43,257 bases of DNA, taken from the NCBI GenBank assembly GCA_017462915.1, contig JAFTQG010000007.1:1-43257 (forward strand). The letters run 5' to 3'. This stretch comes from Prevotella sp. (GTDB taxonomy: Bacteria; Bacteroidota; Bacteroidia; Bacteroidales; Bacteroidaceae). Position 1 is the stretch's first letter; each line of letters begins with the position of its first letter. The translations under genes and the position numbers were made by a program. This document shows, piece after piece, positions 25,400 to 36,606 of this stretch. The notes beneath the pieces were generated by a model, which had not been told where the DNA came from, did no database searches, and saw only the letters and a list, made by a program, of their open reading frames with translations.

Positions 25400-26679
25400 C
25401 TGTTAAGAGTATATTTCAGTTGGTGAATATTTTGTAGAAGTTGTATCTCGTGATAGCGGGCATTGAGCTGTGCCTGGTTCTCGTCGGTTATCTTGCCGAG
25501 AAGGTCGGCAGCGTCGATGATGCCGTTCGCGAGCTGTGACTCGGCGGCCTTGCGTACACGGCCTCGCAGACTGACTATGCGGCTGTCCTCGCTGATTACC
25601 TGTCTAAGGCTGTTGATGGACGACCGCCGTGAGGATACCTCCACGTCTGTATTGAAAAGGAACAGGGCGCGCTCGGCCTCTATGCCGGCATTGTCAACGG
25701 CAATCCTGCGTTTCATGTTTCGCTTGAAATAGAAGGCGTCGATATCCCATGACAGCTTTATGCCGGCAACGGCATTGAAAGACATGTCCCTGTCTCTCAT
25801 GCTTTCAAAGTAATTCAGACCCGGATAGCCGTAATAGGCCTGCGCAAAGAGGCCCACCTTCGGCATTACCGTGGCGTCAACGGCACGGAGACGGGCATTG
25901 TTCATGCTGGTCTGCGCGCTGAACATCTGTAGTTCGGGACGCCCGGAGGTCATCGTCGCCGGCATTTCTCCTGAAGGTCTCTCCAACGTATGGCCGGCAA
26001 GAGACTTGCCGATATACAGCTCGAGCATACGCCTGTAACCGTCTGATGCGTTCCGTGCCTCGGCAAGCTGTTGGCGCATGGTAAGCACCTGTGCCTCAAT
26101 CATGTCCACATCGCTCTGCATGGCAGTGCCATTGGCAAGCATGGACTCCAGCCTGTCCTTGTTGACCTCCAGCAGTTTCAGTGCGGATTGCGTCTGCTCT
26201 ATCTGCTCGTCCAGCAGGAGTATGCCGAAAAAGAGGCTCTGCACCTTCCCGTGCATGGCATACATCTGGACATCAAGGGAGGCGGAGGAGACCGTGGAGC
26301 CTGCACGTTCAATCTCACGTTGTGACTTTGCCGCACCTCCGTCCCATATCTTCTGGTTAAGGTCTACGCCGACTTTATACTGCACATGTCCCATGCCGTC
26401 GAAGCTCTGGCCGTAGCTTGAGAGCATTCCCGTAAGGGCTTCCGGAAATTCCGGCACTGTATTCTGAAGCGAGACCTGTCCGTAGACACCGATTTTCGGC
26501 AACCATCCTTTGTTTATATCGGCAAGGTTCAGGTCGCGTGTCTTGGCAACAAGGTCGTATTTTCTTATCACGGGATAGTTTCTGTCGGCAAGCTCGATAC
26601 ATCGGGCAAGCGTGACTTGCGCCACGGACGACAGCGCAGGCAACGCCGTGGCAAGGATTATTGCAAGAAGTTTCTTCAT
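25396..26679 (-). CDS. TolC-family outer-membrane efflux protein
   Basis: 427 residues with a signal peptide (MKKLLAIILATALPALSSVAQ) and the two OEP repeats of TolC-like channels. The first opens TLARCIELADRNYPVIRKYDLV, and the later segment runs from about 235 to the end (NNARLRAVDATVMPKVGLFAQ, LSWDIDAFYFKRNMKRRIAVDNA). Long helical stretches form the periplasmic tunnel. It is the second gene of the operon after the TetR regulator and overlaps it by four bases, placing exporter synthesis under that regulator. Confidence 0.88.
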   Translation of the reverse strand: MKKLLAIILATALPALSSVAQVTLARCIELADRNYPVIRKYDLVAKTRDLNLADINKGWLPKIGVYGQVSLQNTVPEFPEALTGMLSSYGQSFDGMGHVQYKVGVDLNQKIWDGGAAKSQREIERAGSTVSSASLDVQMYAMHGKVQSLFFGILLLDEQIEQTQSALKLLEVNKDRLESMLANGTAMQSDVDMIEAQVLTMRQQLAEARNASDGYRRMLELYIGKSLAGHTLERPSGEMPATMTSGRPELQMFSAQTSMNNARLRAVDATVMPKVGLFAQAYYGYPGLNYFESMRDRDMSFNAVAGIKLSWDIDAFYFKRNMKRRIAVDNAGIEAERALFLFNTDVEVSSRRSSINSLRQVISEDSRIVSLRGRVRKAAESQLANGIIDAADLLGKITDENQAQLNARYHEIQLLQNIHQLKYTLNR

Positions 26680-27299
26680 GGTCTGAGCTTTTGCATGATG
26701 GTTTCTATGTTCTCCCTCTTCCGCCGCTCGGCGAAGTTCTCTGCCTTCATGGCTCCGTTGAGGAGTGTATTTATCATTGGTGCTGTCACGAAACAGAATA
26801 CGTTGAGCGACAGGATGTCGAGCAACAGCATGGCGGCATCGACCTTACGGCACTCGCCACGGGCGGCATATTCGTCTATCTGCCTTTGCAGGGAAGCGAT
26901 AAGCCAAGGCCCATGTCTCTTGAACTGTTCCTTTATCAGTGTCAGACGCTCCTCGTTATATAGCACTTCCATGACAAGAAATCTCGGCAAATCGGGATTT
27001 GCGGCAAAGAAATCGAAATGCTGTTCTATGGTTTTCGTCACGCGCTCGAAAAGAGGAAGCCTCTCGTCGCCTGCCGATCCTAACATTATATCACGGACAA
27101 GGGAGATTTTCTCCGAGAGAATCTTCTCGAACAACTTGTCTTTTGTACGGAAATAATAGTGCATCATGGCATGGGTAACACCGGCAGCCTCGGCTATGGA
27201 CGATGTCCTCGCACCGGCATAACCCTTCTGCATGAACTCTCGCTCGGCAGCCTGAAGTATCAGTTGCTCTGTAGTTTGCGTAGTGGTTTCGCTCTTCAT
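26676..27299 (-). CDS. TetR/AcrR-family transcriptional regulator of the export operon
   Basis: 207 residues. The N-terminal TetR helix-turn-helix is at about 10-56 (ILQAAEREFMQKG, TSSIAEAAGVTHAMMHYYFRTKDKLFEKIL); the rest is the ligand-binding helical domain. It is the first gene of the minus-strand operon tetR-tolC-mfp-abc-abc-perm-perm, the same combination as E. coli cecR with ybhGFSR. A 16-bp palindrome (TTAACAA-GA-TTGTTAA) lies just downstream of its -7 box, suggesting autorepression relieved by the exported compound. Confidence 0.9.
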   Translation of the reverse strand: MKSETTTQTTEQLILQAAEREFMQKGYAGARTSSIAEAAGVTHAMMHYYFRTKDKLFEKILSEKISLVRDIMLGSAGDERLPLFERVTKTIEQHFDFFAANPDLPRFLVMEVLYNEERLTLIKEQFKRHGPWLIASLQRQIDEYAARGECRKVDAAMLLLDILSLNVFCFVTAPMINTLLNGAMKAENFAERRKRENIETIMQKLRP

Positions 27300-27333
27300 G
27301 GTTATAGTAATGACAGGTATTTAAGGATACGGT

Positions 27334-27349
27334 TTAACAAGATTGTTAA
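27334..27349 (-). promoter_or_regulatory. Candidate TetR operator
   Basis: TTAACAA-GA-TTGTTAA is a perfect palindrome with 7-bp arms, placed at the expected transcription start of the tetR operon, immediately downstream of the -7 box at 27352-27359. A repressor bound here would block initiation. Confidence 0.55.
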
Positions 27350-27351
27350 CG

Positions 27352-27359
27352 CAAAGATA
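27352..27359 (-). promoter_or_regulatory. -7 box (TATCTTTG) of the tetR-export operon
   Basis: The minus strand reads TATCTTTGCG, a perfect TAnnTTTG, about 53 bases upstream of the tetR ATG, with a TTG about 16 bases further upstream as a possible -33 element. Confidence 0.65.
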
Positions 27360-27447
27360 CGGCTACATCCATCAACCGCCAAATTTATGTCTGTTTTTTA
27401 ACAAATATTTTAACGGCCGTTTGTCAGATTATTCCATAATAATTTAG

Positions 27448-27520
27448 TATCTTTGCATAAGGTAAGCTGCACCTCAGCAATTTCAAGCAAGCTTGATTGC
27501 GTTCGGTTTGCATTATCTTT
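27448..27520 (+). repeat. Dispersed 73-bp promoter-bearing repeat, copy 2
   Basis: Same length and order as the copy at 10656-10728. It starts with TATCTTTG (27448-27455) and ends in a second perfect -7 box TATCTTTG (27514-27521). Directly after it, GCAGAAAACAAGCTACGTCTCAGCAGCTTGGA looks like the start of a third, diverged unit. It precedes the truncated yhcG and the restriction operon. Confidence 0.7.
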
Positions 27521-27585
27521 GCAGAAAACAAGCTACGTCTCAGCAGCTTGGAATAAGTTTAATGATATTTTCATTGGGATGTCGT

Positions 27586-27981
27586 ATGAATAGCATAAAA
27601 CAAAGCAACTCCGCTCCATATACTGATAATAATCTGTTGTCGGAGATACGTCAGTTTATCGATGCCTCCAAAGCACAAGTCGCGGTAGCTGTAAATTCTG
27701 CCATGACCTTACTTTACTGGCATATCGGCGAACGAATCAACAGAGCAATTTTAGGAGGCGAGAGGGCTGCATACGGCAAACAAGTCGTGGCAACTCTTTC
27801 GCGGCAGTTGACTGAAATATATGGTAAGGGTGTGTTCTCCGAAAAACATCTGCGCCAGATGACACGGTTTGCTGAAGTTTTTTCTGATGAAAAGATTGTA
27901 TACACAGTGTGTAGACAATTAACATGGTCGCATCTTAGATTGCTTGTCCCGATGGAAGATAATATTCAGCGTGAGTTTTAA
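27586..27981 (+). pseudogene. Truncated YhcG/DUF1016-type nuclease, N-terminal domain only
   Basis: 131 residues that match the DUF1016 N-terminal domain by eye: LLSEIRQFIDASKAQVAVAVNSAMTLLYWHIGERI, GKQVVATLSRQLTEIYGKGVFSEKHLRQMTRFAEVF and QLTWSHLRLLVPMED. Full YhcG-type proteins are about 340-370 residues and carry a C-terminal PDDEXK nuclease domain, which is missing here. The frame stops right after IQREF, at the point where the second domain normally begins, and composition becomes much more AT-rich beyond it. This looks like a gene cut by acquisition of the restriction operon. The ATG at 27586 (MNSIKQ) is preferred over longer starts. Confidence 0.75.
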
Positions 27982-28044
27982 TATAGATTAAATACAAATG
28001 TTTGAATTAATACAAGTATTTACAAAATATTATTGATAATTTAT

Positions 28045-28680
28045 ATGATAAAAAGATTCTTTAAATCATCTTTAGGTATATCTGTTTTGGCAGGTTTAAT
28101 TGTTGCATTCATTTGCTGGATTGCTTCTTGTATATATGCGTCAATAAATAGTGTAAAACTTTGGCAAGCATTCGTTTTGTTGATGAATTACCAAATTAAT
28201 GTTGGGTGTGTAATATTCATTTGTATATTATTCATTATATGTTTCAGTATTATATTACATAAAGCTCAAAATGAAATTCAAAAAAAATATTACACAAAAC
28301 AGGAAATCAATCAAAAACTTAATAACAAGGTTGAATGTTATGCTTGTCATGGATCATGGGATGCACTTTTTGCTATGATTACTCCATATCATCCTCTTCA
28401 TGAATGGTATACAGATAAATCTTATTATATTAATTCTTTTAAATCTATGATTTCTAATGGTCTCTCCCATAAGCCTAGTCCAGATTATTATGAAATCGAA
28501 TATGGAATAGACGGATTGTATAACGTCTTAAAAGAATCTCAATATATTTCTGACACAGATTGTGATTCCATTCCGTTTTATCTGAAACAATGTTCAGATA
28601 AAGAAGTGGGGGCAAAAAAAGAGCGACTCTTAAAATTAATAGAACAAATGCACAGATATGGCACAGAACAAGATAAATAA
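28045..28680 (+). CDS. Two-helix membrane protein of unknown function, first gene of the restriction operon
   Basis: 211 residues. Two hydrophobic segments lie at about 9-31 (GISVLAGLIVAFICWIASCIY) and 52-72 (VGCVIFICILFIICFSIIL). A soluble C-terminal domain of about 135 residues follows, containing CYACHGSWDALFAMITPYHPLHEWY and many Tyr residues. I do not recognise it. It is very AT-rich. Its 3' end overlaps the methyltransferase gene by 23 bases, so it is co-translated with the type III and PtuAB-like genes and could be a membrane effector or regulator for them (inference from position only). ATG at 28045 is chosen over an upstream TTG. Confidence 0.7.
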   Translation: MIKRFFKSSLGISVLAGLIVAFICWIASCIYASINSVKLWQAFVLLMNYQINVGCVIFICILFIICFSIILHKAQNEIQKKYYTKQEINQKLNNKVECYACHGSWDALFAMITPYHPLHEWYTDKSYYINSFKSMISNGLSHKPSPDYYEIEYGIDGLYNVLKESQYISDTDCDSIPFYLKQCSDKEVGAKKERLLKLIEQMHRYGTEQDK

Positions 28681-30517
28681 ATTGGAACTGACGTGGATAG
28701 GTAAGGATGAAGAGCCTCTTGCCGTCGAGCCACGTTTGCTTATAGAAACTCCCAAGCATAGTTTTGGGGAGGTTGAAACTGGAACATTACCTAATGGAAA
28801 ACCGTGGAAAGGCAATATGCTTATTCATGGAGATAACCTTCTTGCGCTCAAAGCACTTGAACAAGACTTTGCAGGGCAAGTAAAATGTATTTTTATTGAT
28901 CCTCCATATAACATAGATGCTGCAAATGAACATTATGATGATTTTGTTGAACACAGTAAATGGTTATCATTAATAAAGCCTCGTCTTGAAATTTTGAGAA
29001 ATTTGTTGGATGATAGGGGAGCTATTTTTATACAAATCGGAGATGAGGAACAGGCATATTTAAAAGTACTATGCGATGAAGTTTTTGGTCGCAGTAATTT
29101 CTTAAATATGATTTCTGTGAATATGAAAAGTGGAGCAGGAGCATCTGGAGGCGGTGAAGATAAGCGATTAAAGAAAAATTGTGAGTTTATTCTTGTATAT
29201 GCAAAAAAATACGCTGAATTAGTTCCTTTTATACCAATATATGATTACAGAGAAATGTATAATGTTGTTGAATCTTATCGTAAATTAAAGATTTCATGGC
29301 ATTACAATTCAGTCCTTGTAGACGAAGGGGAACGAGAATATGTTACTTCCACATACGATGGAGAGGGTAATGAGATTAAAATATTCAGCAGAAAAAATGC
29401 AATTATAAAGTCCATCCGTCAGGTAATGGCTGACGAGAATATAACAGAAAAGGAGACATATTATAAATACGCTAATCGCATATTCGAAGCAAAAGATGCT
29501 CAAAGTTCAATACGAACAAGAGTAAAAGATGCAAAAAAGGAAAAAGGTATATTAGATGATGTAGTATCAATAGAATATATACCTCGCAGTGGCAAAAACA
29601 AAGGCAAGGTATATGAACAATTCTATAAAGGAGATAGTTGTCGGTTATTTGCTTGGTTAGGAGATATAGGTGAGTTTATTGATGGCATTTTGTATAAGAA
29701 AGAGCGACAAGGTACGTATTGGAATATGACCTCTTATCTAAATAACCTAACAAAGGAGGGAACAGTATTATTTCCCAATGGTAAAAAACCGGAAGCGTTG
29801 ATAAATAGAATATTTGAAATGTGTACGGCTTCCGGCGACCTTGTCCTTGACAGCTTCCTTGGAAGCGGCACTACTGCTGCAGTTGCTCATAAGATGGGGC
29901 GCAGATGGATAGGTGTGGAGCTTGGAGACCATGCCTATACACATTGTGCTGTACGTATGCGAAAAGTGATTGAGGGAGAGCAAGGCGGAATATCAAAATC
30001 ACAAAACTGGAGAGGTGGCGGCGGATTCAAATTCTATGAGCTTGCACCGAGCCTTCTCAATCATGACAAGTATGGTAATCTTGTTATCAACAAAGAATAT
30101 AATGCAGATATGCTTGCCGCTGCCATGGCGAAGCATCAGGGCTTTACTTATTCGCCCGATGCTGAGCTCTACTGGAAGCAAGGGCACAGCTCGGAGCACG
30201 ATTTCATCTTTACAACAACCCAGCTGCTTACCGTTGAAATGCTTGAAAGCATTCACGAACAGTTGGATGAAAACGAGTCGCTGCTTATCTGCTGCTCAAA
30301 GTTCCAGCCCGGATGCCGCGACAAACATGCTAATATAACCATAAAGAAAATCCCCAAGGTGCTGCTCGATACCTGCGAATTTGACCGCGACGATTATTCC
30401 CTCAACATCGTTTCAATGCCTGACGGCATAGAGGATGAAGAGTGGGATGATTCGCAGGATAGTTCAGAGACTGAGATTTCGGAAATAAATCTAAAGGAAA
30501 AAACATTGTTTGATTAA
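28658..30517 (+). CDS. mod: Type III restriction-modification DNA methyltransferase (Mod)
   Basis: 619 residues. Motif IV FIDPPYN (about 78-84) precedes motif I LDSFLGSGTTAAVAHKMGRRWIGVEL (about 396-422), the beta-class order of type III N6-adenine methyltransferases. The region between, about 130-370, is the target recognition domain. It is distinctly more AT-rich than the motif I region and the C-terminus (after about 29820), which suggests replacement of the specificity region. The enzyme would methylate one strand of an asymmetric site and guide the Res subunit. The next gene (PtuA-like) starts 14 bases after its stop codon. Confidence 0.9.
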   Translation: MAQNKINKLELTWIGKDEEPLAVEPRLLIETPKHSFGEVETGTLPNGKPWKGNMLIHGDNLLALKALEQDFAGQVKCIFIDPPYNIDAANEHYDDFVEHSKWLSLIKPRLEILRNLLDDRGAIFIQIGDEEQAYLKVLCDEVFGRSNFLNMISVNMKSGAGASGGGEDKRLKKNCEFILVYAKKYAELVPFIPIYDYREMYNVVESYRKLKISWHYNSVLVDEGEREYVTSTYDGEGNEIKIFSRKNAIIKSIRQVMADENITEKETYYKYANRIFEAKDAQSSIRTRVKDAKKEKGILDDVVSIEYIPRSGKNKGKVYEQFYKGDSCRLFAWLGDIGEFIDGILYKKERQGTYWNMTSYLNNLTKEGTVLFPNGKKPEALINRIFEMCTASGDLVLDSFLGSGTTAAVAHKMGRRWIGVELGDHAYTHCAVRMRKVIEGEQGGISKSQNWRGGGGFKFYELAPSLLNHDKYGNLVINKEYNADMLAAAMAKHQGFTYSPDAELYWKQGHSSEHDFIFTTTQLLTVEMLESIHEQLDENESLLICCSKFQPGCRDKHANITIKKIPKVLLDTCEFDRDDYSLNIVSMPDGIEDEEWDDSQDSSETEISEINLKEKTLFD

Positions 30518-30531
30518 AATATTATATAATT

Positions 30532-31665
30532 ATGGCACGATACATAACGAATATTCATGTCAATAAACTCTTTCATTTGAGTAACTTTGACATACCGGTG
30601 GCAGATGATAATGCTCCACATCTCATTTTGACAGGTAAAAACGGTAGCGGTAAGACAATCACCCTTAACGCTATTGCGGACTTTCTTGATAAGATAAAGA
30701 GATATGAAAATACAGTACAGGATGGAGTTTTATTAGACGAAGTTAATGTGGATTTTATTGATGGGCATGACTATACGCTTGAACATCAAGAAGGAAACTT
30801 TATCATTGCATTTTATGAGGCTGCTCGTAAGCCTAAAATTTTAGAGCCGATAAGTCCTGTGAAGCCTGATCTACAGGAAAAGGTTGATTCCCGCAAAATA
30901 TTGACCAAGAAATTGCTCTTTTTCTTGTCAGACTTAAAAATACAGGAGGCTCTTGCAAGAAATGAGCAGCAGAATGCTGATGCTGATAGGATAAAAGATT
31001 GGTTTGAGAGTTTTGAGAATGTGCTTAAAGGTTTCTTTGAAGATAAGAATCTGAAACTTCGATTTAATTATCGTGACTATACTTTCCATATTGAGACACA
31101 GGGTAAGTCGTTTAAGTTTACAGAACTGTCAGACGGTTTCTCTGCTATAATTGACATCGTAGCAGATCTTATCTTGAAGATGCAAAAGAAGGATACGCTT
31201 GTGATGGATTATCTGAAACCAGGTATCGTTCTGATTGACGAAATAGAAACACACCTACATCTCCAGCTCCAGAAGACAGTGCTTCCGCTTCTGACTAAAC
31301 TGTTCCCAAACATTCAGTTTATCGTCACTACGCACTCCCCCTTTGTGCTCAATTCGTTGCCTAATGCTACGGCATTTGATATGGAGCATCGTGAGACCAT
31401 CGTCAATCTATCAGAGTATTCTTATCAGGCTCTTACAGAAGGCTATTTTGGTGTATCGTCGGATTCTGATTATATCAAAGCACGATTGGAGCAACTTCGT
31501 GAGTTGCTCGCAAAGGAACAACTTACTGATGATGAGACCGAAACGACAAAACAAATTATTGCTGATTTCCGCAATATGTCTGAAGCTGCATCACCTGCAA
31601 TTACAGGGCACTTTAACAGCCTGTTAGTAGATTATTCGGAAAAGATAAGAAATATACTTGAATGA
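30532..31665 (+). CDS. ptuA: PtuA-like AAA/ABC-type ATPase (Septu)
   Basis: 377 residues. The N-terminal strand ITNIHVNKLFHLSNFDI and Walker A LTGKNGSGKT (about 33-42) are followed by a signature-like FTELSDGFSAIIDIVADLIL near 198-217. Walker B is IVLIDEIETHLH near 232-243 and the switch block FIVTTHSPFVLNS near 263-275. This is the SMC-like ATPase class of PtuA from Septu and of retron effectors. Its stop overlaps the start of the HNH gene (ATGA), as in Septu operons. In Septu, PtuA forms a multimer that controls the nuclease PtuB in response to infection (family knowledge). Unusually it sits between mod and res. Confidence 0.8.
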   Translation: MARYITNIHVNKLFHLSNFDIPVADDNAPHLILTGKNGSGKTITLNAIADFLDKIKRYENTVQDGVLLDEVNVDFIDGHDYTLEHQEGNFIIAFYEAARKPKILEPISPVKPDLQEKVDSRKILTKKLLFFLSDLKIQEALARNEQQNADADRIKDWFESFENVLKGFFEDKNLKLRFNYRDYTFHIETQGKSFKFTELSDGFSAIIDIVADLILKMQKKDTLVMDYLKPGIVLIDEIETHLHLQLQKTVLPLLTKLFPNIQFIVTTHSPFVLNSLPNATAFDMEHRETIVNLSEYSYQALTEGYFGVSSDSDYIKARLEQLRELLAKEQLTDDETETTKQIIADFRNMSEAASPAITGHFNSLLVDYSEKIRNILE

Positions 31666-32312
31666 TACGAATATATAAACATCTTACAGAACCTGCATCT
31701 TTGGCTACACATCAATCATACAACGGTGAAGATATCGTACGTCAACTAAGGGCAGACCAACATGGAAAGTGTTATCTGTGTGAACGCTTTACTGTGACTG
31801 ACTTTCAGGTTGAACACCATAAAAGCCAAGCTAAGCATACGGATTTAACTTATTGTTGGAATAACCTTTTTTTGAGTTGCAGTTACTGTAACGGTAAGAA
31901 AAGTGATTCATTTGACAACATGGTGAATCCACCAGAGAATAACATTGAGGAAAATATTGAGCAGAGACTTGATTTTAATAACTCAAAAGCTGTGTTCAAG
32001 TATGTTGGAGAAGAAGCAATAAATGAAGAATATAAAGAAACAATATCCTTCCTTAATCGTGTCTTTAATGGTACGAATAAATTAAGAACAGTACGGGAGC
32101 AGCAGTTTTATAATTATGTACTCAGAGGCATCAATTCTTTTCAGAAATTGGTTGTGGACTGGCTACTTGCCCCGACAAAAGAACTTGATGATGCTATAAG
32201 GCAAAGTCTCGGTATTGATAAAGAATTGTTGGGCTTTAAATATTGGATAATAAAATCTAATGGGCAACTTTTGAAGGCTTTTGGTGAAAACATAAAATGG
32301 AATAAGCAATAA
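31662..32312 (+). CDS. ptuB: PtuB-like HNH endonuclease (Septu)
   Basis: 216 residues. The HNH core is visible with two zinc-binding pairs: CYLCER near 37-42 and CSYCNGKK near 71-78, flanking VEHHKSQ (about 50-56), the catalytic His block, and WNNLFLSC. This is the pattern of PtuB and the related TIGR02646-type proteins. The C-terminal half is helical and probably contacts the ATPase. The gene overlaps the PtuA-like gene by four bases and ends in TAATG with the res start, so all three are translationally coupled. The expected action is cutting of DNA or tRNA once released by the ATPase; the target is not predictable from sequence. Confidence 0.82.
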   Translation: MIRIYKHLTEPASLATHQSYNGEDIVRQLRADQHGKCYLCERFTVTDFQVEHHKSQAKHTDLTYCWNNLFLSCSYCNGKKSDSFDNMVNPPENNIEENIEQRLDFNNSKAVFKYVGEEAINEEYKETISFLNRVFNGTNKLRTVREQQFYNYVLRGINSFQKLVVDWLLAPTKELDDAIRQSLGIDKELLGFKYWIIKSNGQLLKAFGENIKWNKQ

Positions 32313-35005
32313 TGAACTCACAAGTAAACTACATACGTCAACGTCTTTCGCTCCGCAAACCATTGGCAGAGGCATTGGAGTTGACATCCCGTCTGACAGA
32401 TGTACTCTCTTTGCAGAAGCCGCCTAAAGTGGAAGACAATGACAAAGAACAGAATGAGGCTTTTATTGCGGCAGAACTCGCCAAGGTGAAATCAATAGTG
32501 CCTACGGTCAAGAGTTTTGACCGTGAGTTCCCATCGCTTGCCTTTTCGATAGCCACAGGCATCGGCAAGACACGTCTGATGGGAGCTATCATTGCCTATC
32601 TTTATCTGAAAAAGGACATCAAACATTTCTTCATTCTTGCGCCGAATCTGACGCTCTATGAGAAATTGGCCAAGGATTTCGGTGATACCTCATATTCTAA
32701 ATATGTATTCCGAGGTATTAGCGAGTTTGTCGCCCACCCTCCGAAGAAAATAACCAGTGAGGACTACGCTGACCGTACAGGTTATCTGTACTCTGATATT
32801 GAAATCAACATTTTCAATATATCCAAGTTCAACAAGGACAGCAGAGATGGTGGGAAGGGTACACCGCGTATGCGTCGCCTCTCGGAATATCTTGGTCAGT
32901 CGTATTTTGACTATCTCGCTTCATTGCCAGACCTCGTCATTCTGATGGATGAGGCACACCGTTATCATGCCGATGCCTCAAAGAAAGCTATCAACGAGTT
33001 GCGCCCGATACTTGGCTTTGAGATGACGGCTACACCGTTTGACGAGAAAGGAAAGGCGTTTAAGAATATCGTTTTTGAATACAACCTTGCCCAGGCTCTT
33101 GATGATGGGCTATATGTGAAGATTCCTACCGTCGCCACAGCCCGAAATTTCAATAAGGACAATTATACTCCCGAAGGAATAGAAATGCTGAAACTTGAAG
33201 ATGGTATAGCTTGCCACGAGCGCACAAAACTTGCTATCGAACTATATGCTCAGCAGAACGGCCTTCCTGTAGTAAAGCCGTTCGTTCTTGTAGCTTGTCG
33301 TGACATCGAACATGCCAAGTCTGTCAGAGAATTTATCGAAAGCGACCAATTTTACCATGGTGCATATCGTGACAAGGTGCTTCAAATAGACAGCTCCACC
33401 AAAAAGGATGATAATATCGAACGTCAGTTTGTTGCGCTTGAATCACCTGGCAACAATATAGAGATTGTGGTACACGTGAATATGCTGAAGGAGGGATGGG
33501 ATGTGAACAATCTTTATACTATTGTTCCTCTCCGTGCGTCTGATGCTGTCGTCCTTATCGAACAGACCATAGGGCGAGGTCTGCGTCTGCCATACGGTGG
33601 CCGACGCACGGGAAATAAGGAGGTAGATACCCTCACTGTCATTGCCCACGACAACTTCCAAAAGGTTATTGGTGAGGCACAAAAGGGCAACTCTATTTTG
33701 AAAAGAGTATCTTACATAGAATTGGAAGAACGCGATAACCGTGACAAGGGCTATATAGAAAAGTCTTCAACCTCAACAGAGTTGCAGATACAGCAATATA
33801 TAGAAAAGTCACAACCTGATATCAGCAATCAGGCAAAGTTGGATATCATTCAGTTAGGCAAGGCTATTGAGACTGTCATAGCCAGCATTGCCGCCGATAT
33901 TGTTTCTTACAATGACCTCCAAAAGACAGAAATTAAGGAAAAAGTCTGTAAACGGGCAATTGCCATTATCAAAAAGTGTGATAAAAATGATATTTTTGTT
34001 GAGCAGGCAATACAAATTTATGAGGTTTATGACATTGTTGTCAAGAACCATATAAGCAATGTTATCGAGATACCACGCGTCATTATAGAGCAACAGCCCA
34101 TTACTGCTGTCTTTGAAGACTTTGAACTGGACACATCTCAGTATAGTATTGAAAAATTACAGCGAGAGATTATTCGTCAGGACTTGCATGACATAGCAGA
34201 TACAGAAGTCTTCACAGGAAAAATAGGCAGTCCTAAGCGACCAGCCTTTGAGCAACTCATTGATGCTTTAACTGATTTTGACGATATAGATTATGACGAA
34301 ACTTCCGATTTGCTTTATAAACTGGTCGGCCAAGCATTAGACGCCGCTCGTCGCAGCATACCAGGTATTACAGAAGACGACTTGAGCGAACTGGTCGGTA
34401 CTCTTAAGCAAAATCTTGCCAACAACATTTATAAGCAAATGAAGGAGCACTATCATATCATTTCAGGAGATTTCAAAGTCAATAAGGTGCTCCCGTTTTC
34501 AAGAATGCTTGACCAGTCTATTGTAATCACCAATTGGGGAATGCTTGATTATCATGAACCTTTGCCGACACAGAAGTCTATGGTCGTAAAATATGTGTAT
34601 ACAGGCTTCAAGAAATCTTATTACACCGAGTATCGCTTTGACAGCAGTACCGAACTTGATTTCGCCTTTATCCTTGAAACGGACAATGATGTTCTCAAAT
34701 GGCTTAGGCCTGTGCCTCGCCAGTTACATATATATTGGGCGAATAGTGCAAAGAACTACGAACCGGATTTCATTGTGGAGACTGCATATTCCATCTATCT
34801 ATGCGAAATCAAGCGAGAAGATCAAGTCAATTCCAAAGAAGTGCAAGACAAAGCGGCAGCCGCTTGCGAATATTGTCGATATGCTTCTGAATTTACTTGT
34901 AAGAATGGTGGCAAGCCGTGGCGGTATGTAGTCATTCCTCATACATTGGTTGTCAGAGGATATACCTTCGATTATGTACTTTCACAAACAAAATTACATC
35001 TATAA
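32312..35005 (+). CDS. res: Type III restriction endonuclease subunit (Res)
   Basis: 897 residues. A superfamily 2 helicase core: Walker A SIATGIGKTR (about 79-88), DEAH box VILMDEAHRYH (about 208-218), motif III EMTATPF (about 237), and motif VI EQTIGRGLRLPYG (about 416-428). The C-terminal PD-(D/E)xK nuclease is visible as YEPDFIVE and IYLCEIKRED (about 813-835). It translocates on or slides along DNA together with Mod and cuts after convergence of two complexes (family knowledge). The length is normal and no frame damage is seen. The start codon overlaps the ptuB stop in TAATG. A hairpin follows at 35053. Confidence 0.92.
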   Translation: MNSQVNYIRQRLSLRKPLAEALELTSRLTDVLSLQKPPKVEDNDKEQNEAFIAAELAKVKSIVPTVKSFDREFPSLAFSIATGIGKTRLMGAIIAYLYLKKDIKHFFILAPNLTLYEKLAKDFGDTSYSKYVFRGISEFVAHPPKKITSEDYADRTGYLYSDIEINIFNISKFNKDSRDGGKGTPRMRRLSEYLGQSYFDYLASLPDLVILMDEAHRYHADASKKAINELRPILGFEMTATPFDEKGKAFKNIVFEYNLAQALDDGLYVKIPTVATARNFNKDNYTPEGIEMLKLEDGIACHERTKLAIELYAQQNGLPVVKPFVLVACRDIEHAKSVREFIESDQFYHGAYRDKVLQIDSSTKKDDNIERQFVALESPGNNIEIVVHVNMLKEGWDVNNLYTIVPLRASDAVVLIEQTIGRGLRLPYGGRRTGNKEVDTLTVIAHDNFQKVIGEAQKGNSILKRVSYIELEERDNRDKGYIEKSSTSTELQIQQYIEKSQPDISNQAKLDIIQLGKAIETVIASIAADIVSYNDLQKTEIKEKVCKRAIAIIKKCDKNDIFVEQAIQIYEVYDIVVKNHISNVIEIPRVIIEQQPITAVFEDFELDTSQYSIEKLQREIIRQDLHDIADTEVFTGKIGSPKRPAFEQLIDALTDFDDIDYDETSDLLYKLVGQALDAARRSIPGITEDDLSELVGTLKQNLANNIYKQMKEHYHIISGDFKVNKVLPFSRMLDQSIVITNWGMLDYHEPLPTQKSMVVKYVYTGFKKSYYTEYRFDSSTELDFAFILETDNDVLKWLRPVPRQLHIYWANSAKNYEPDFIVETAYSIYLCEIKREDQVNSKEVQDKAAAACEYCRYASEFTCKNGGKPWRYVVIPHTLVVRGYTFDYVLSQTKLHL

Positions 35006-35052
35006 AATCCTGCAACCGTAATTCATGCGGTATAAAAGAAACATGACCCAAA

Positions 35053-35092
35053 AGCCGGACACATACAGCTGTATAGCCATACGTGTCCGGCT
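35053..35092 (+). terminator. Hairpin terminating the restriction operon
   Basis: AGCCGGACAC (35053-35062) and its exact complement (35083-35092) flank an inner palindromic segment, about 50 bases beyond the res stop codon. It lies between convergent genes and may serve the trmB side as well. The downstream run is mixed A/T. Confidence 0.6.
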
Positions 35093-35183
35093 CTATATAT
35101 TACAGGAGTCCTGCCTTACATTATTATAATAATAAGAAACAGTATCATCATGGTTATCGCGCTGCATGATGACAGCAAGGCGT

Positions 35184-35954
35184 CTATTTCGCTTTCTCCA
35201 ACGATGAACGCTTGTCACGGTGATATGAGCGGTAGTCGTCAAGCTCTATCTCCACATCCGGCTCCTGTAGTACGGCGGTACGCGGAAGGCGGAATTTCTG
35301 GTACTTGATGTTCAGTCCGCGCGCTATCCACATCGACTCGTAATAAGTCTGTATGGAAAGTATGCGCCTTGTCTCCTCGTCCAGCCCCTCCTGATGATAC
35401 AGGTCGGTAGTGCGGAAGAGCAGAGGCAGGGAGTTGGTGTCCACCATATACGATGTATATGTGAAGAGGAAGTTGGAGTCTGTCTTCAGATGGACTATGC
35501 CTCCGTCGACAAGGAAGCGGCGGTAGCGTTCCATGAAGTATGTGGAGGTGAGACGCTTGCGCGGGTTCTTCATCTGCGGATCGGAGAATGTCAGCCATAT
35601 CTCCTGCACCTCATCCTCGGCAAAGAAGCGGTCGATGATTTCTATCGAGGTGCGCAGGAATGCCACATTCTTCAGTCCGTCCTGCAGAGCCTGTGTCGCG
35701 CCGGTCCACATCCTCGCTCCCTTGATGTCCACACCGATGAAGTTGCAGTCGGGATACAGCCGTGCAAGTTCCACGGTGTACTCGCCTTTGCCGCAACCGA
35801 GTTCAAGGATTATAGGATTGTCATTATGAAAGAACTGCTCTCGCCAATGGCCTTTCATGTCGAAAGGCACATTGGCGACAACAGAATATGGATACTGGAA
35901 CACATTCTCATAGCGTTCCATATCAGCAAATTTCGCCAGTTTTCCCTTTCCCAT
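35184..35954 (-). CDS. trmB: tRNA (guanine-N7-)-methyltransferase
   Basis: 256 residues. The SAM-binding motif [16 protein letters not shown] is near 48-63, [13 protein letters not shown] near 71-83, and the TrmB-specific [19 protein letters not shown] near 119-137 with [14 protein letters not shown]. The enzyme methylates G46 in the variable loop of tRNAs. It follows the DUF975 gene by 19 bases and ilvE further upstream on the same strand. There is an extra C-terminal segment of about 40 residues compared with E. coli TrmB, normal for Bacteroidetes. Confidence 0.92.
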
Positions 35955-35973
35955 CTGCGTCTGTTGGAGAGGG

Positions 35974-36606
35974 TTAGATGACTTCTTTCATACACTCGCC
36001 ACGCTCAGCCTTCAGCTCTTCGTAGAATGTTGCGCGTGCTGTGTTCATATAAGGAGCAAGGAGCAGGATTCCGATACCGAGAGTCAGTATCATAAGAATT
36101 ATCCAGCCGATGAACGAGAGGTCAAGGAGGAAGAGCTTCAGCTTGTAGCCCTTCATCATCTTCATGCTCTCCACGATAGCCTCCTCGGCACCCATCTCCG
36201 GGTTATCCTTCAGGATATAAGGCGCCATTGCGTATGAATAAGACTTGATTATGCCAGGGATAAGCAGCAGAAGAGCCCAGAGGAGGGTGTATATAGCTGT
36301 CAATATGCTAAGTATCCACACACGTCCTGACGGATAATACTTGAAGAGGCCTTTCACTTCCAGTTTCTCTCCACGCAAGAAATCGAGGAAAACCACTGTT
36401 ATGGCGTAGCCCATCGGGATGAGCAGTAAGGAAGACAGGTTGCTGAGAGCCTTCCAGGAATTCTCAAGAGATGAGACACAGACATTTCCGCCGGTCGAGA
36501 GAAGGATACTCAAGGCCATATACACTAACATTAAAATAGCGGCATTGCCCCAGTTGCCGTCAAGAGCTTCCAAGCTCTTTTTACGAATTTGGCTGTTTTG
36601 TAACAT
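35974..36606 (-). CDS. DUF975-family integral membrane protein
   Basis: 210 residues with about five membrane segments: [70 protein letters not shown], and [25 protein letters not shown]. The arrangement [24 protein letters not shown] followed by [12 protein letters not shown] and [16 protein letters not shown] is the DUF975 pattern. Function is unknown for the family. ATG at 36606 ([15 protein letters not shown]) is chosen because it gives the usual DUF975 N-terminus; a longer frame to 36693 would overlap ilvE. Confidence 0.85.

Follow-up and report, generated by a model that had tools for sequence, protein, structure and literature searches.

It has been reported that defence modules may be carried inside larger restriction or modification operons. 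For example, Septu embedded in Hma systems is named in PMC12255303 and Hma is reported to occur frequently together with Septu I (PMC8565338), and pairs of an ABC-type ATPase and an HNH nuclease within BREX and BREX-related operons have been proposed as back-up effectors (PMC12839542). Effectors nested between restriction genes are also described for type I loci, namely DarTG2 (PMC12255303) and, in type IC loci, PrrC (PMC12707154), which likewise has an ABC ATPase and targets tRNA (PMC11555353). As regards Septu itself, one E. coli system, in which ATPase and HNH residues are both required, cleaves tRNA-Tyr on infection (PMC13096335), the PtuAB pair of retron-Eco7 depletes tRNA-Tyr, and for the PtuAB of a different Septu nicked DNA is the reported target (both PMC11555353). 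Here we analyse a stretch of 43,257 nucleotides from Prevotella sp. (assembly GCA_017462915.1, contig JAFTQG010000007.1, positions 1 to 43,257; referred to as the window), in which a Septu pair, ptuA and ptuB, lies between the mod and res genes of a type III restriction-modification operon. A literature search of titles, abstracts and selected passages found no description of Septu inside a type III locus, and the Payne 2024 preprint (10.1101/2024.01.29.577857) may already list the combination; because Septu in Hma is already in print, the present arrangement is a new variation on embedded Septu rather than a new kind of system.

The locus is read here, with a probability of about 0.62, as a modular anti-phage operon that has a type III-like Mod/Res core and a cassette slot between mod and res, which is occupied here by a complete Septu pair. 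PtuAB would most likely be an autonomous back-up effector that shares the expression and mobility of the restriction operon, and not a dedicated part of one machine, an arrangement that fits the known bacterial packing of back-up defences rather than a new kind of machine. This reading draws on sequence: the family identity of the proteins, their intact motifs, the packing of the genes, and the recurrence, swapping and stand-alone occurrence of the pair. The genes concerned are the following:

28045-28680, + strand: membrane protein gene (MEM), 211 amino acids, with an in-frame TTG upstream at 28033
28658-30517, + strand: mod, type III DNA-adenine methyltransferase
30532-31665, + strand: ptuA, Septu ABC-type ATPase
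31662-32312, + strand: ptuB, Septu HNH nuclease
32312-35005, + strand: res, type III restriction subunit

All five frames are open and follow the order membrane protein, mod, ptuA, ptuB, res that a preliminary description of this DNA had given. The junctions that it listed were recovered by computation, with an overlap of 23 nucleotides between MEM and mod, a gap of 14 nucleotides between mod and ptuA, an overlap of 4 between ptuA and ptuB (ATGA) and of 1 between ptuB and res (TAATG), which bears out its picture of one tightly packed gene train. Its assignment of the Septu pair likewise stands, as profile search places both proteins inside and not outside the PtuA/PtuB families. PtuA matches PADLOC PtuA1 (PDLC00268, E 1.6e-104) and Pfam AAA_21/AAA_15, has solved PtuA relatives and carries a Walker A (GKNGSGKT) and a Walker B motif (LIDEIE), both conserved in a 9-row alignment. 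PtuB matches PADLOC PtuB1 (PDLC00323, E 3.1e-81) over residues 1-216 and Pfam HNH above cut-off, also has solved relatives, and keeps H52, N68 and two CxxC pairs unchanged across 6 aligned rows, the essential H75 and N91 of an E. coli Septu PtuB having the same 16-residue spacing as H52 and N68 (PMC13096335). No reverse transcriptase, which would mean retron I-A, was found among the six frames scanned with profiles, and the retron ATPase_I-A profile matches PtuA more weakly (E 2.8e-35) than PtuA1 does. By its sequence the pair therefore corresponds to Septu type I, with a PtuA ATPase, an adjacent PtuB HNH protein that overlaps it by 4 nucleotides, and Walker and HNH motifs; it differs in sitting between mod and res and not alone. 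Searches for PtuB relatives returned none in viral contigs, two phage records with a partial HNH match and two partial matches in plasmids.

The type III identity of the flanking genes, also proposed previously, is supported as well. Mod corresponds to PADLOC MTase_III (PDLC03636, E 1.2e-153) and Pfam N6_N4_Mtase (E 1.1e-42), its translation contains DPPYN and FLGSGTT motifs, and its solved relatives include the EcoP15I modification subunit. Res corresponds to PADLOC REase_III (PDLC03648, E 7.5e-155), with Pfam ResIII above and RE_endonuc below cut-off; it has helicase motifs and C-terminal PD-ExK-like residues (D819, E832 and K834) that are invariant in 7 aligned rows, and its solved relative is the EcoP15I restriction subunit. 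Mod and Res are thus homologous to those of classical type III systems such as EcoP15I, and mod and res become adjacent once the ptuAB cassette is set aside; the difference is that most relatives of the window operon add an SNF2 helicase gene and cassette slots.

To place the locus among its relatives, one genome per species was scanned with a Res alignment, which gave at least 562 relatives, the best 80 of 562 being used. These 80 loci, the window, two further genomes and five plasmid loci, less the duplicate L061 (loci are given L numbers and genomes G numbers), make up 87 loci, and Mod and Res are both present in 79 of them; L061, whose contig matches that of L044, was left out of locus counts and of the Res tree, and the census of slot frames took 88 loci including it. 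The wider system is an operon of modular build, in which the usual order is SNF2 helicase - [slot A] - Mod - [slot B] - Res. An SNF2 gene of at least 400 amino acids is present in 53 of the 58 loci with at least 4 kilobases (kb) upstream of mod, two more having fragments and three none; a looser count of 62 of 65 takes any locus where SNF2 was seen and hence favours SNF2, and the window, cut to 26001-36000 in the census, stands outside both counts. Slot A, between SNF2 and Mod, is occupied in 40 of the 62 loci that carry SNF2, and slot B, between Mod and Res, in 31 of 79 when same-strand frames of at least 90 amino acids are counted, or in 33 of 78 rows of the Res tree when frames on either strand are taken. 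The slot contents were typed by profile for 24 of 132 frames (the window's two included) and otherwise assigned by likeness to those. Cassettes in slot B include PtuAB, an ATPase with DUF4276 (HEC-01), DUF3800 with PDC-M04B, AAA_15 with a partner, SIR2, Fic and YhcG; in slot A, BRO-N, Schlafen-AlbA, AIPR, an HTH-peptidase protein and proteins with transmembrane segments were found, and several of the profile-typed frames had no family match. Unrelated cassettes often show equally tight junctions. Two cassettes, PtuAB followed by HEC-01 AB, share slot B in L043 and L056, and annotated transposases lie inside the operon of an Aeromonas plasmid (L045) and a Salmonella plasmid (L049).

Compared with the embedded systems described so far, this operon shares with Hma-embedded Septu, and with the HEC/PDC embedded defences of PADLOC, the presence of a defence cassette within a modification-type defence operon. 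It differs in its host system, which is SNF2-Mod-Res of type III kind, whereas Hma consists of a helicase, an m5C methylase and an ATPase that is called a DUF499 ATPase in PMC12839542. No DUF499 match was obtained for the five window proteins in Pfam at E up to 1 and the SNF2 of the system is missing from the genome, so Hma membership was rejected; DISARM, considered because the SNF2 proteins of relatives best match PADLOC DrmD (E 1.1e-202), was set aside along with Hma, DUF499 being missing in the window. With the BREX dyads the locus has in common the same type of ATPase and HNH module inside a larger system, but no BREX core gene was detected among the five window proteins or ten typed proteins of relatives, the SNF2 protein showing just a general helicase likeness to BrxHI/BrxHII. 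PrrC and DarTG2 resemble PtuAB in being nested between restriction genes, with the difference that their host system is type I and that PrrC is a single protein and PtuAB a pair.

The nested order is recurrent, yet not common. Among the 79 Mod-Res loci ptuAB lies between mod and res in five (the window, L043, L054, L056 and L065), that is, in 4 of 78 others, so that the order is neither confined to this strain nor a chance arrangement; L043 and L056 are close kin, and in L082 ptuAB is found upstream of the SNF2 helicase instead. When 393 genomes were drawn evenly from the window's order, a set that overlaps the census (G590 = L061, G734 = L112, G753 = L074), this Res was found in 10 and PtuB of the wider family in 10. 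No PtuAB was present in the stretches examined of the nine Res genomes other than the window's, three of these stretches being just 4-6 kb. Upstream sequence is available for seven of the Res genomes, counting the window and G590; SNF2 is present in four of them and absent from three.

That the pair is exchangeable is indicated by L043 and L056, whose proteins are 97% identical in Res, 99% in SNF2 (of which L043 has part only) and 97-99% in HEC-01, as against 56% in PtuA, 56% in PtuB and 67% in Mod. At the DNA level identity breaks in the Mod recognition region, returns to about 90% or more across the remainder of mod, is lost a second time about 40 nucleotides into ptuA and returns about 110 nucleotides before the end of ptuB; the recognition region thus broke separately from ptuAB. 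To judge from these alignments, ptuAB was replaced between the two loci while the restriction core was kept; a slot-A gene is present in L043 and absent from L056. Insertion of ptuAB by a transposon was rejected because the L043/L056 breakpoints lie in coding ends, as in homologous recombination; there was also no transposase among the six window frames scanned with profiles, and neither of the two repeats found in 30200-32700, a direct pair (73%) whose copies both fall within genes and an inverted pair (73%) shared by ptuA and res, lies at the ends of ptuAB. Loss is likely in L058, a near neighbour on the Res tree that has no cassette and a mod-res gap of 88 nucleotides, where a scar seems to have been left: the frame in the gap starts with MNYFIKN like ptuA of L043, L056 and L065 and ends with WNKQ like PtuB of the window, and its ptuA half matches best of 48 empty slots (21 of 24 nucleotides, next 17).

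PtuAB of the same subfamily also occurs on its own. In 14 loci (L033-L038, L137 and L142-L148) the pair has no Mod, Res or SNF2 in the stretch examined, L037 and L137 being contigs of less than 5 kb; this set leaves out PtuB matches in G014, G071, G124, G125 and G146 and weaker second matches. On the PtuA tree the stand-alone L142 falls among the embedded rows (support 99/97). Two ptuA-ptuB pairs stand in tandem in L036 (G099), and the stand-alone L144 (G843) has two in-frame stops in its PtuB frame. The genetic independence that swapping and stand-alone occurrence point to favours autonomous action of PtuAB with shared expression.

Upstream of mod, the membrane protein has two predicted N-terminal transmembrane segments (5-37 and 42-76, by hydropathy) and is, on present matches, a family orphan: the best ones are weak (PADLOC 4TM effector, E 0.0011; Pfam DUF6057, E 0.0013, below cut-off), and the protein was found only in its own genome among 199 and in no plasmids or viral contigs. 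A family of slot-A membrane proteins of 268-311 amino acids with N-terminal transmembrane segments is encoded before or near mod in L054, L057, L059, L065 and L081. Kinship of the window protein with this family was rejected (profile comparison probability 2%). No Pfam family was found for L054 and L065, the two scanned, and no PADLOC family for L054, L065 and L057, with a weak DrmC match for L081; phrog_16113 was matched weakly in the three scanned. The L054 gene, whose protein shows no detected relationship to that of the window, again overlaps mod by 23 nucleotides, so that this junction is not peculiar to the window gene and the last residues of the two proteins are common to both. Further features at the two ends of the operon are:

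27448..27563, + strand: region at the head of the operon with two promoter-like TATCTTTG boxes, at 27448 and 27514
27493..27981, + strand: cut-down DUF1016_N (YhcG-type) gene, N-terminal domain only, without the nuclease domain
35053..35092: hairpin after res from an inverted-repeat search, with 18-nucleotide arms that are 83% complementary

The DUF1016_N frame matches Pfam PF17761 (E 5.7e-33, residues 51-162 to profile positions 1-111 of 137) and PADLOC PDC-S02, and aligns over 132 residues, at 45% identity, with the opening third of the DUF1016 protein in slot B of L103, whose C-terminal part has no match beside the frame. YhcG-type genes are frequent in slot B of relatives, and two YhcG_C genes lie elsewhere in the window genome. 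Because the frame is on the same strand and stops 63 nucleotides before the ATG of MEM (51 before the TTG), the transcript may begin with this gene. Each TATCTTTG box opens one copy of a 50-nucleotide direct repeat (2 copies, 70% identical), which is perhaps a duplicated promoter and leader; the second falls just inside the DUF1016_N frame when the listed TTG is taken as its start, and the true start of this gene may be a later ATG. The motif TAnnTTTG is what we take to be the -7 box of Bacteroidota. The box alone is weak evidence, since its 33 matches across the window (24 expected) are equalled in 2 of 100 shuffles, and a longer two-box pattern had no match at the operon head. From gene packing, one transcript for the operon is likely, and the hairpin 3' of res could possibly mark its end. 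The operon is flanked on the left by a TetR regulator (Pfam TetR_N) and on the right by a TrmB-type methyltransferase (Pfam Methyltransf_4), a match that suggests the name trmB used here. In genome G060 (12.6 kb compared), whose trmB protein is 99% identical, the operon segment next to trmB is absent and homology to the window stops at 35186, beside a rearrangement. Its locus L179, set against 14384-43083 of the window, has a block of approximately 35.2-39.9 kb inverted, and about 19 kb (15.8-35.2 kb) are extra in the window.

Several observations weigh against a modular operon with an autonomous PtuAB. The census relatives are not a random sample, and only the window genome has both Res and PtuAB in the draw of 393 genomes. 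In L058 the ptuB half is weak by ungapped match (20 of 30 nucleotides, next best of the 48 empty slots 19) and barely beats the other empty slots, so that the deletion is likely, not proven. A match to the full two-box promoter-like pattern lies inside the start of mod (28735-28766, + strand), which speaks against a single transcript. No SNF2 helicase of this system was found in the window genome beyond two weak short matches, which means that the restriction core of the window may be impaired. Furthermore, the six embedded PtuA rows cluster on the PtuA tree (21 rows; 9 of 18 inner branches weak), with 2 changes and 1 of 500 shuffles as low, and the PtuAB loci cluster on the Res tree (86 rows, L088 being left out with its longest Res frame below 700 amino acids), with 4 changes compared to a shuffled mean of 5.9 and 0 of 500 as low; on the same tree HEC-01 and DUF3800 require 5 changes each. 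Being clustered on both trees, the PtuAB lineage keeps to its host lineage, which could mean functional fit. It is this clustering that gives some probability to a guard role akin to that of PrrC, in which the restriction complex would silence PtuAB and phage inhibition of restriction would free it, leading to tRNA cleavage and abortive infection. The anatomy matches, in that a nuclease under the control of an ABC ATPase lies between genes for modification and restriction, and PrrC of a type IC locus is reported to be activated on restriction inhibition (PMC12707154), a sensing role that PtuAB would have in this model. The preliminary description had suggested HNH attack when restriction fails or is inhibited; if such attack does occur, it may be directed at tRNA instead of DNA, because the PtuAB pairs of one E. 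coli Septu and of retron-Eco7 are reported to act on tRNA-Tyr (PMC11555353, PMC13096335). However, close PtuAB relatives stand alone without Mod and Res, the swap of PtuAB was independent of the change in the Mod recognition region, and the same slot takes unrelated cassettes, for which reasons we consider a guard role unlikely. Such a guard of type III restriction would be a second independent invention of the PrrC arrangement, perhaps with PtuAB as a tRNase and the membrane protein as a third, membrane-acting layer, a proposal that we regard as doubtful.

It is also conceivable that the window copy has lost its helicase and part of its DUF1016 gene and is on its way out, the nesting being without present function. 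The missing SNF2 partner, the cut-down DUF1016_N gene at the operon head and the absence of the segment beside trmB in G060 would agree with such decay, but all five frames are open with intact motifs, and two other genomes of the same order with upstream sequence present (G683 and G756) are also without SNF2, which makes decay distinctly improbable. The single integrated system of the preliminary description survives in part: the nested order recurs and the junctions are tight, whereas a coupling specific to one PtuAB-Mod-Res machine is not supported, because the slot takes unrelated cassettes and PtuAB stands alone, has been swapped and has apparently been deleted. In its strong form, one obligate five-gene machine with PtuAB as the effector of Mod/Res recognition, the idea also meets with a membrane protein restricted to a single genome among 199, and we hold it to be very improbable.

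If PtuAB is an autonomous cassette in a modular operon, family knowledge would predict that Mod marks host DNA and that Res cuts unmarked phage DNA, and that PtuA, an ATPase in complex with the nuclease PtuB, keeps PtuB inactive until a signal of infection leads to its release. Freed PtuB would then cut tRNA or DNA and halt phage growth. Responding to a signal of its own, PtuAB would provide a second layer against phages that survive restriction, and by nesting it would gain shared transcription and translation as well as joint transfer. The membrane protein before mod would be a candidate third effector, located in the other slot.

With its two slots, the SNF2 - Mod - Res operon resembles a natural trap that collects defence genes, in which unrelated cassettes, some of unknown function, occupy the same two places across several phyla. 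The swap between L043 and L056 and the apparent deletion in L058 are natural experiments that bear on whether embedded effectors have no more than a promoter in common with the restriction genes or detect what state the restriction enzyme is in. If embedded effectors do sense the restriction state, they would represent a type III counterpart of PrrC.

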